From positions 1 to 43,858 of the forward strand of contig WLMU01000008.1 in assembly GCA_009700115.1 (NCBI GenBank): a DNA stretch of 43,858 nucleotides, read 5' to 3'. Source of the stretch: Actinomycetota bacterium. GTDB lineage: Bacteria; Actinomycetota; Acidimicrobiia; Acidimicrobiales; Acidimicrobilacustridaceae. The notes under the pieces were generated by a model, which did not search any database, was not told the DNA's origin, and worked only from the letters and a program-made list of their open reading frames with translations. This document shows positions 40,588 through 43,858 of the stretch, piece by piece. The stretch's first letter is position 1. Each line of letters begins with the position of its first letter. A program made the translations under genes and the position numbers.

Positions 40588-43500
40588 TCAGCTCAAGCGC
40601 CGACGTCTGAGCAGTTCCATAGCGAATCCGACACTGAACAAAAGCACCGCCCAGCCCACATAGGCCAACGCGTCTGAACCAGTCATTGGAAGTTTCTGAC
40701 CCGCGATCGTGATGACGTCAGGATGCGGCGTCACCGTTGGATGGATCGTTGCCCAGACAACCTGACCAAGCACATCCTCAACGACATAGGCGATCGGCGT
40801 CGCAACACCAACGAATTCCGGTTCGGGAGTGAACGTCACTGTTCCATCGCCGTTGATCGAATACGTGCCTTCACCAGCAATCGATACCGAGGTCTGCGAG
40901 CAGGTCGGCGGCGTATCAGCCGGTCGGCAAAGCCGCAGCGTTGTGAGGTCGAAGGGAACTCCTGCGTTTGCAGGTGTGTCATTGCTAAAGATCGAAATGA
41001 CCTGAGCAACACCCTGTTCCGACTGACCAGAGTCATCGGCGAGAGCAGGCGGTTCAACAACCGCAGGCGTGTACGTCGACGAAACAACGCGCCCCATCTG
41101 ATCTGCCACCACATAAGGAAGCGCATCAGCAGTGCCGATGAAGTCGGAATCAGGAGTGAATGAAACAACACCGGTTGCCGAATTGAGGACGTACTCCCCA
41201 ACGCCTGCGAGCTGCACACGGAGCGCCGTGCAACTCGGGGATGACTCACCATCGCCGCAAAGGCGGACAGTTGCAAGCACTAAGGGAATCGCCGGGTGGC
41301 CTGGGGCGTCGTTGTTCAGCAGATCCGAGAGCTGGACCTCTCCCTGAACGCCGAAGGTTGCCGTCGGGTTCGCGATTGGAAGCGGCGGAGGAAGCACCTC
41401 AGGAGTGATCGTTGCAGTCACGCTTCGAGCGAACACATCCGCAACCACGTACCGGATAGGCACGGTCACCACACCGATAAACCCTGCATTGGGATCAAAG
41501 GTCACAACACCAGTCGCGGGATCGACCCAATACTTGCCATCGGCCGTAATCAATGGACTGCCCTGACTCGGCACCAGCGAACAGTTCGTCGAGGTGAACG
41601 GAGCAGTCGCTGAGAGCGGGCAAAACTTCAGACTTGAGAGCACGAACGGTGCGCTTGGATCGCCAGCCAAGTCGTTCATCATCGGCGTGATCGATTGGTT
41701 GGTGTCGTACTCGTCAACGTTCGTGTCATTCACCGCAACCGGAGGCGGAGGAACAATCGGCGTCAACGTCGACGTCGCTGTCTGACCAACAATGTCTGTC
41801 ACGCGATAGGTGATCGAGGTCTTCGTCCCCGGAGCGACACCCGGATCCGCCGCATAGGTGACAATGCCAGTTGCCGGATCAAGAGTGAACACGCCCTGGC
41901 CATTGATCGGCACGACATTGTCCGCATCGCATGTTGTGGTGTTCGGCGTGTACAAACACGTCACCCCAGCACCAATAGTGACAAGACCCGTTCCAGTCGC
42001 AAGACCAGACGTACCAGTGATGTTCGTAAAGCTGATCGTTCCACCCGGAAGCACTGACTTCGTCTGCGGAGTTGCAACAGGCGCAGGCGGATTCGACACA
42101 CTCAACGTGATCTTCGCCGTGGTTTGCTGACCAAGACTGTCAGCAACGACATATTGAACTGGCTGCGTCACCGTGCCACTGAAATCCGGATCCGGATCAA
42201 AGGTCACCACACCCGTGGCCGGATCAACCCAATACTTGCCATCAGCAGTCACCAACGGACTGCCCTGCGACGGAACGAGTGAACAGTTCGTCGAGGTAAA
42301 CGGAGCCGTGGCCGAGGTGGGACAGAACTTCAACGAACTCACTACCAACGGCGCACTCGGCGCACCCGGCGAGTCATTGCCCAGCGGCGAAACCGTCTGA
42401 TTCGTGTCATACGCACCGATCGGACGCGTGTCATTGACCGCAACCGGAGGCGGAGGAACAATCGGCGTCAACGTCGACGTCGCTGTCTGACCAACAATGT
42501 CTGTCACGCGATAGGTGATCGATGTCTTCGTACCCCGGGTCACCACAATCGGATTCGCGGCGTACGCAACAACACCCGTAGCCGGATCAAGCGTGAACGT
42601 GCCCTCACCATCAATAGTCACAACATTGTCCGCATCGCAGGTTGTTGTGTTTGGCGTGTACAAACACGTCACACCAGCGCCACTGGTCTGCAAACCGGTA
42701 CCAGTCGCGAGACCAGAACCACCAGTGATTGTCGTGTAACTGATCGTTCCACCAGGCAACACGGATTTTGTCTGTGGCGTCGCCACCGGAGGTGTCGGGT
42801 TCGAAACGCTCAACGTGATCTTCGCCGTGGCCTGCTGACCGAGGCTGTCAGCAACCACATACTGAACCGGCTGCGTCACCGTGCCAGTGAAACCAACATT
42901 CGGATCAAACGTCACAACACCAGTCGCGGGATCAACCCAGTACTTACCGTCGGCCGTGATCAACGGGCTGCCCTGACTCGGCACCAGCGAACAATTCGTC
43001 GAGGTGAAAGGCGGAGTTGCTGAGGTCGGGCAGAACTTCAAGGTGCTCACTACCAACGGAGCTGACAACGCACCCGGAGAGTCATTCGTAAGGGGGCTGA
43101 TGGTTTGGTTCGTGTCATAGGCACCAGGAGCCTGGGTGTCGTTGTTCGCAACCGGAGGCGGCGGCACAACCGGCGTCAACGTCGACGTCGCTGTCTGACC
43201 AGCAAGATCTGTTACTCGATAGGTGATCGAAGTCTTCGTTCCCTGAGTGACACCCGGATCGGCGTCGTAGGTGACGATGCCGGTTGCCGGATCCAGAGTG
43301 AAGATGCCCTGACCATTGATCGTCACAACATTGTCCGCATCACACGTTGTTGTGTTCGGCGCATACAAACAGGTTGCACCAGCACCCGACGTGACAAGAC
43401 CCGTTCCCGACGCGAGACCGGAACCACCCGTGATGTTCGTGAAGCTGATCGTGCCACCAGGGAGCACCGACTTCGTTTCTGGAGTCGCCGTCGGTGGAGT

Positions 43501-43858
43501 CGGATTCGACACACTCAACGTGATCTTCGCCGTGGTCTGCTGACCCAAAGAATCAGCAACTACATACTGAACTGGCTGCGTCACCGTGCCAGTGAAACCA
43601 GCATTTGGATCAAACGTGACAACACCAGTGGCGGGATCAACCCAATACTTACCATCGGCCGTCACCAATGGACTTCCCTGCGACGGAACGAGTGAACAAT
43701 TCGTCGATGTAAACGGAGCAGTTGCCGAGGTCGGACAGAACTTCAGAGTCGAAAGAACTAATGGAGCACTCTCCGCACCCGGCGAATCATTACCCAGCGG
43801 CGAAATCGTCTGATTCGTGTCATAGGCACGAGCCGTTTGTGTGTCATTGAGCGCAACC
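40588..43858 (-). CDS. Large cell-wall-anchored adhesin with CshA-like repeats, C-terminal part
   Basis: Open from the right edge to the TAG at 40588, about 1090 visible residues; the N-terminus is outside the window, so no start can be assigned (TTG at 43668 is not the start). Nine beta-rich modules follow one another, the first seven alternating between two types, each with the CshA-fibril-like end (G.Y/F...PATG.VTFDP..GFTG....YVVAD..GQ). Each has a pair of Cys in a loop (CPTSATAPFTSTNC; CLYTPNTTTC), likely a disulphide. The last two modules are more divergent. The end is LPMTG (40678-40692), a hydrophobic segment and RRRRLS: a sortase sorting signal. It is probably displayed as a long fibril for attachment; no sortase gene is in the window. 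Confidence 0.88.
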   Translation of the reverse strand, partial: VALNDTQTARAYDTNQTISPLGNDSPGAESAPLVLSTLKFCPTSATAPFTSTNCSLVPSQGSPLVTADGKYWVDPATGVVTFDPNAGFTGTVTQPVQYVVADSLGQQTTAKITLSVSNPTPPTATPETKSVLPGGTISFTNITGGSGLASGTGLVTSGAGATCLYAPNTTTCDADNVVTINGQGIFTLDPATGIVTYDADPGVTQGTKTSITYRVTDLAGQTATSTLTPVVPPPPVANNDTQAPGAYDTNQTISPLTNDSPGALSAPLVVSTLKFCPTSATPPFTSTNCSLVPSQGSPLITADGKYWVDPATGVVTFDPNVGFTGTVTQPVQYVVADSLGQQATAKITLSVSNPTPPVATPQTKSVLPGGTISYTTITGGSGLATGTGLQTSGAGVTCLYTPNTTTCDADNVVTIDGEGTFTLDPATGVVAYAANPIVVTRGTKTSITYRVTDIVGQTATSTLTPIVPPPPVAVNDTRPIGAYDTNQTVSPLGNDSPGAPSAPLVVSSLKFCPTSATAPFTSTNCSLVPSQGSPLVTADGKYWVDPATGVVTFDPDPDFSGTVTQPVQYVVADSLGQQTTAKITLSVSNPPAPVATPQTKSVLPGGTISFTNITGTSGLATGTGLVTIGAGVTCLYTPNTTTCDADNVVPINGQGVFTLDPATGIVTYAADPGVAPGTKTSITYRVTDIVGQTATSTLTPIVPPPPVAVNDTNVDEYDTNQSITPMMNDLAGDPSAPFVLSSLKFCPLSATAPFTSTNCSLVPSQGSPLITADGKYWVDPATGVVTFDPNAGFIGVVTVPIRYVVADVFARSVTATITPEVLPPPLPIANPTATFGVQGEVQLSDLLNNDAPGHPAIPLVLATVRLCGDGESSPSCTALRVQLAGVGEYVLNSATGVVSFTPDSDFIGTADALPYVVADQMGRVVSSTYTPAVVEPPALADDSGQSEQGVAQVISIFSNDTPANAGVPFDLTTLRLCRPADTPPTCSQTSVSIAGEGTYSINGDGTVTFTPEPEFVGVATPIAYVVEDVLGQVVWATIHPTVTPHPDVITIAGQKLPMTGSDALAYVGWAVLLFSVGFAMELLRRRRLS
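40591..40692 (-). other. LPMTG sortase sorting signal
   Basis: The last 34 residues before the adhesin stop are LPMTG, a short spacer, a hydrophobic stretch (YVGWAVLLFSVGFAMELL) and an Arg-rich tail, the three-part signal cut by sortase A-type enzymes. It places the protein on the cell wall. Confidence 0.9.
41741..43858 (-). repeat. Tandem ~705-nt repeats in the adhesin gene
   Basis: Three full units (41741-42445, 42446-43153 and 43154-43858, sizes 705, 708 and 705 nt) are closely similar at the base level, and a fourth, partial copy continues to about 41350. Each encodes two adjacent modules (235-236 residues). Length differences are whole codons, so the frame is kept. Tandem identity this high allows copy-number change by recombination or replication slippage, and short-read assembly of the region could be collapsed. 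Confidence 0.9.

Follow-up and report, generated by a model that had tools for sequence, protein, structure and literature searches.

The window, the 43,858-nt stretch of DNA analysed here, is an entire contig (G000:C162) and carries at one end an open frame whose repeats each contain two Cys residues; the questions raised are what kind of surface protein this frame encodes and what role the Cys residues play. The frame, at 40588..43857 on the minus strand, encoded 1089 aa with no start codon at 43857, its 5' end being cut by the contig edge, and the host draft genome amounted to 2.23 Mb in 183 contigs at 85% completeness. What the frame specifies is very probably a CshA-type fibrillar adhesin with Cys-closed loops, represented here by its cell-proximal stalk and its cell-wall anchor; a role in adhesion would be in keeping with what is known of the family.

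Repeat array, module fold, and cell-wall anchor

Both PF19076 (280.5 bits, cut-off 27) and TIGR04225 (318.3 bits, cut-off 60) matched nine stretches of the frame, bearing out the CshA-like modules proposed in the sequence-only reading, and DNA self-comparison gave peaks at offsets of 705, 708, and 1413 nt, in agreement with its tandem period of about 705 nt. Assigned by sequence, the modules ran in the order A0-B1-A1-B2-A2-B3-A3-C1-C2; behind C2 came LPMTG, a hydrophobic segment, and RRRR. Modules A (about 120 aa) and B (about 113 aa) alternated with a period of 705/708 nt; the two alternating module types described earlier thus hold for the first seven modules, A0 to A3, but not for the last two, C1 and C2, which were of different types. 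The features assigned are as follows.

40588..43857, minus strand: C-terminal 1089 aa of a predicted CshA-type fibrillar adhesin (open frame, PF19076/TIGR04225)
43501..43857, minus strand: module A0, Cys 41/54, 5' truncated by about one residue (TIGR04225 match at 43510-43752)
43156..43494, minus strand: module B1, Cys 163/172 (repeat alignment; AlphaFold2 model with A1, pLDDT 92.7)
42796..43155, minus strand: module A1, Cys 276/289 (repeat alignment; AlphaFold2 model with B1)
42448..42789, minus strand: module B2, Cys 398/407 (repeat alignment)
42088..42447, minus strand: module A2, Cys 512/525 (repeat alignment)
41743..42081, minus strand: module B3, Cys 634/643 (repeat alignment)
41386..41742, minus strand: module A3, Cys 746/759 (repeat alignment)
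41050..41382, minus strand: module C1, non-alternating type, Cys 867/876 (AlphaFold2 model of C1+C2, pLDDT 96.1)
40726..41049, minus strand: module C2, Cys 977/986, best TIGR04225 match at 64.7 bits (profile; AlphaFold2 model of C1+C2)
40678..40692, minus strand: LPMTG sortase-type motif (sequence; scan of window ORFs)
40591..40677, minus strand: cell-wall sorting signal, hydrophobic segment and RRRR tail (sequence)
42680..43635, minus strand: tract near-identical to congener G020 (exact matches of 243 and 682 nt)

The AlphaFold2 predictions for C1+C2 (mean pLDDT 96.1, pTM 0.79) and for B1+A1 (mean pLDDT 92.7, pTM 0.80) each consisted of two beta-sandwiches, and the PDB structures matched by both models were tandem domains of Ig, cadherin, or bacterial adhesin type, the best with Z 11.2 over 105-107 residues at an rmsd of 2.4. 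Each module of about 110-120 aa is shown to be a CshA repeat, modelled as an Ig/cadherin-like sandwich and arranged head to tail with its neighbours, and the Ig-like fold, on which the earlier proposal depended, was recovered. The closest solved relative by sequence was 6szc, a CshA repeat of Streptococcus gordonii; with the profile of A3, one further and weaker PDB chain passed, 36gk, an RTX protein (E 3.2e-6).

The C-terminus, with LPMTG, the hydrophobic segment, and the RRRR tail, possessed an LPXTG-type sorting signal, and a scan of the 43,858-nt window revealed no second LPXTG-type C-terminus among its ORFs. Profile search found no PF04203 sortase in the 85%-complete host draft, while 19 of the 20 congeners had a sortase of this family, as did every one of the 27 sampled genomes that were at least 90% complete; the missing sortase is therefore best read as incompleteness of the draft. 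Its absence was rejected as an argument against anchoring, and the sortase-anchored fibril proposed earlier is in accord with both the signal and the sortases of the congeners. The gene neighbourhood of the frame was conserved with that in congener G020; genes downstream include those for an SfLAP membrane protein, a PPK2, and an Amidohydro_2 protein. A plasmid search gave only distant tandem-95/Ig-like proteins of about 30% identity.

The contig ended before any adhesive tip or NR2 domain; N-terminal parts were seen in congeners. The ortholog in the near-complete congener G020 (CAMCTW010000061.1, isolate MsH-01oct19-144) comprised 2813 aa in the order glycine-rich and SWM regions, 276 aa with no Pfam or PDB match, GEVED, 16 CshA repeats, and LPMTG. 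This record (L072) is titled as a 'Bifidobacterium breve' MAG; it belongs to the same genus as the window organism, with neighbour genes 88% identical, and its title looks mislabelled. A GEVED domain also preceded the repeats in congener G018, where the N-terminus possessed a propeller-like DUF5122 region, a weak fn3 match, and, as judged by eye, a hydrophobic signal-like segment. No NR2 adhesive domain was matched in the congeners' region before GEVED by Pfam, phmmer, or a two-sequence profile, and a class-wide search with this region gave a match in one of 198 genomes. With the congener N-terminus as query, a search run with no positive control gave no match to the missing 5' part in the host draft.

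Cysteine pairs and oxidative folding genes

The frame contained 18 Cys, exactly two in each module and always in the same loop, with a spacing of 13 in A and of 9 in B and C; the pair at an equivalent loop, earlier ascribed to nearly every module, was present in 9 of 9. In the AlphaFold2 models, the first Cys lay where strand C finishes or shortly after it, and the second immediately ahead of the following strand, the loop in C1 and C2 being modelled with high confidence (block pLDDT of about 95-98), and the alignment with 6szc had a 7-residue gap in 6szc where the Cys-bracketed segment falls.

Cys were counted on whole modules. The freshwater-type set, made up of the distinct modules of the window, its congeners, and other freshwater-type MAGs (L055-L062, L075-L077, L088, L094), had 0 Cys in 6 modules, 2 in 70, 4 in 7, and odd counts in none, the label 'freshwater-type' being derived from the titles of the MAG records and not from a habitat field. 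The 367 distinct modules of other actinobacteria and Bacillota (Pimelobacter, Leucobacter, Microbacterium, Streptococcus, Gemella, and others) had 0 Cys, in a comparison group picked by hand and with no correction for phylogeny; a few loci from Clostridiales-type MAGs, where Cys were isolated (L097, L114, L124), were left outside this group. Over all 610 distinct modules, 481 had no Cys, 10 had one, 100 had two, 2 had three, and 17 had four. The Cys-closed-loop variant of the repeat was found here only in freshwater-type actinobacteria, the CshA-type stalk itself being of a known kind. The view that such a pair is unusual stands in comparison with CshA repeats of streptococcal, soil, and host-associated origin, none of whose 367 modules had a Cys, but the trait is not unique: several other freshwater-type actinobacterial MAGs possess it, and surface fibres that depend on disulphides are known in Actinobacteria.

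Within the freshwater-type set the spacing ranged from 7 to 18 with both Cys always kept, as expected if the loop is closed covalently but free to vary in length. With two Cys per module, bonding between chains would be possible as well, and the pairs might then cross-link neighbouring fibres through intermolecular disulphides, or else bind a metal, rather than form structural disulphides within a module; this is quite improbable, because the Cys always co-occur at the two ends of one loop, confidently modelled in C1 and C2, because the module alignment showed no conserved His or additional Cys beside the pair, and because the strict evenness and the 7-18 spacing are better explained by an intra-loop disulphide than by a metal site.

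A gene for DsbB (PF02600) was found in the host genome and in 15 of the 16 genomes of the genus searched. At L160 (G000:C151; 1720-2451 and 2448-3026), the DsbB gene, with CELC and CTAAAPC in its product, overlapped by 4 nt a gene for a membrane-anchored thioredoxin-fold protein with CPHC; the partner gene was also present in congeners G008 and G004, there with CSFC. VKOR was rejected as the oxidant, its profile giving no match above the cut-off in the host genome or in any of the 16 searched from the genus, and one sub-threshold match in G011. As for DsbA of family PF13462, matches in the genus were weak, and the one in the host genome resembled, by sequence, an FrnE-type DSBA-family protein with no export signal. 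The even Cys counts, together with the DsbB/DsbA-like gene pair, give strong if indirect support to the view that the two loop Cys probably form an intra-module disulphide.

A probable course of events can be outlined. The protein would be exported by Sec, the DsbB/DsbA-like (CPHC) pair would oxidise the two loop Cys of each module, and the disulphide would close the inserted loop that separates strand C from the GEGTY strand. Sortase would then couple the C-terminus to the cell wall, and the stiffened stalk would hold the N-terminal domains, which in congeners are GEVED and regions of glycine-rich, SWM, and propeller-like type, away from the cell, where they may attach to particles, cells, or polymers.

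Cys were also observed in other arrangements. In distant Big_9-type/CshA-like repeats (L087, L126, L128, L144, L152, L154), pairs occurred at another site (VCD...CDTA), which suggests that disulphides were gained repeatedly and independently. A congener surface protein (L056, G008:C128, 3983-9235) had a Cys-rich N-terminal domain, with about 21 Cys in about 760 aa, followed by SdrD_B-like and CshA repeats, some of the repeats with four Cys.

Evolution of the array

The sequence-only reading had taken a high identity of units 1-3 as a sign of recent amplification and length variation. Identities among A0/A1/A2 and among B1/B2/B3 were 78-84% in nt and 82-91% in aa, and A3 shared 66-69% nt identity with the other A modules, so that the units, 16-22% apart in nt, are not near-identical. 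Comparable units in the window (A or B) differed by a dS of 0.5-1.1 with a dN/dS of about 0.10-0.17; these values indicate that the units are old and conserved, with the fold kept by selection, and recent amplification was rejected.

Length variation is suggested by the window having one B-A unit fewer than G020, but the difference sits at the end of a MAG contig. Here, A0 was a mosaic, its first 59 nt matching A5 of G020 and the part after nt 222 matching A7, and 925 of the approximately 956 nt at 42680..43635 fell in two exact matches to G020 (243 and 682 nt), with the downstream flanks and neighbour genes sharing about 88% identity. Either a tract was exchanged between congeners with one B-A unit lost or gained, or the contig end is chimeric, which is quite possible, as repeat assembly is error-prone. 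That sequence of a co-occurring species was joined in assembly to the array at its 5' part (about 42680-43635), making some of the repeat order artefactual, is a serious possibility, though rated somewhat below an even chance: exact tracts are shared with a species whose flanking genes are only about 88% identical, and they adjoin the contig end, but true recombination between congeners within repeats would look alike, and the window genome and G020 are separate assemblies.

The missing unit and the mosaic A0 would also suit a protein of the periscope type in which the number of repeats is currently switching and the length varies accordingly, the more so as the stalk is a single sortase-anchored chain and a list of periscope-protein folds includes CshA_repeat (PMC9704523). 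This reading is rather unlikely, since the units are 16-22% apart in nt with a dS of 0.5-1.1, the mosaic is found at the very end of a MAG contig, a place where mis-assembly of repeats is likely, and a single near-complete array is at hand for comparison.

Implications and comparison with known systems

These findings add small-genome freshwater-type actinobacteria to the bearers of CshA-type adhesin stalks and suggest that such organisms devote resources to long surface fibres. The repeat family was found to be sharply split: nearly all repeats of freshwater-type MAGs had the Cys pair, and no sampled repeat of streptococcal, soil, or host-associated origin did. With a DsbB/DsbA-type pair in place of VKOR, the trait offers a testable case of disulphide stabilisation in single-chain bacterial stalks. 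A wider proposal, that freshwater-type planktonic actinobacteria evolved a lineage-specific CshA stalk, with a disulphide-closed loop insertion in every bead made through a DsbB/DsbA-type pathway and not VKOR, giving a stiff or redox-tunable fibre whose arrays are remodelled by interspecies recombination, is speculative and, taken as a whole, unlikely. In a literature search with all terms jointly, no paper on freshwater actinobacterial LPXTG adhesins was found.

Disulphides have precedents in actinobacterial fibres (PMC5478893, PMC12617251), which makes a Cys-containing stalk less surprising. In Actinomyces oris, sortase-assembled pilins depend on disulphides made by an MdbA/VKOR pathway (PMC5478893), and a related MdbA pathway operates in Corynebacterium diphtheriae (PMC9974433). 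The A. oris pilins share with the present protein the nature of actinobacterial sortase-linked surface fibres with disulphide-dependent folding (here presumed), but they are polymerised and use VKOR, in contrast to a single chain and a DsbB-type oxidase here. Of the intramolecular isopeptide domains of Actinomycetota, 41.3% are reported to contain disulphides (PMC12617251); the CLIPPER domains of that study are likewise covalently stabilised beta-sandwich stalk domains, in a fibrillar adhesin with CshA_NR2-like and GEVED-like domains, but belong to another domain family and combine an isopeptide bond with a CTTC tetrapeptide disulphide.

Cultured actinobacteria (Pimelobacter simplex L078, Leucobacter zeae L080, Microbacterium L081) have CshA-type proteins that also possess tandem CshA repeats, in arrays of 8-14 modules, but lack Cys in every module. 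S. gordonii CshA binds fibronectin. CshA/CshB of this species (TIGR04225/PF19076; 6szc) share with the window protein the repeat family, the single-chain head-to-tail stalk, the LPXTG anchor, and, in the congener ortholog, GEVED before the repeats. They differ in that the streptococcal repeats sampled lack Cys, whereas a Cys pair closes an inserted loop in each module here, that two module types alternate here, and that the N-terminal part in the congeners has propeller-like DUF5122, SWM, and Gly-rich regions and gave no NR2 match.
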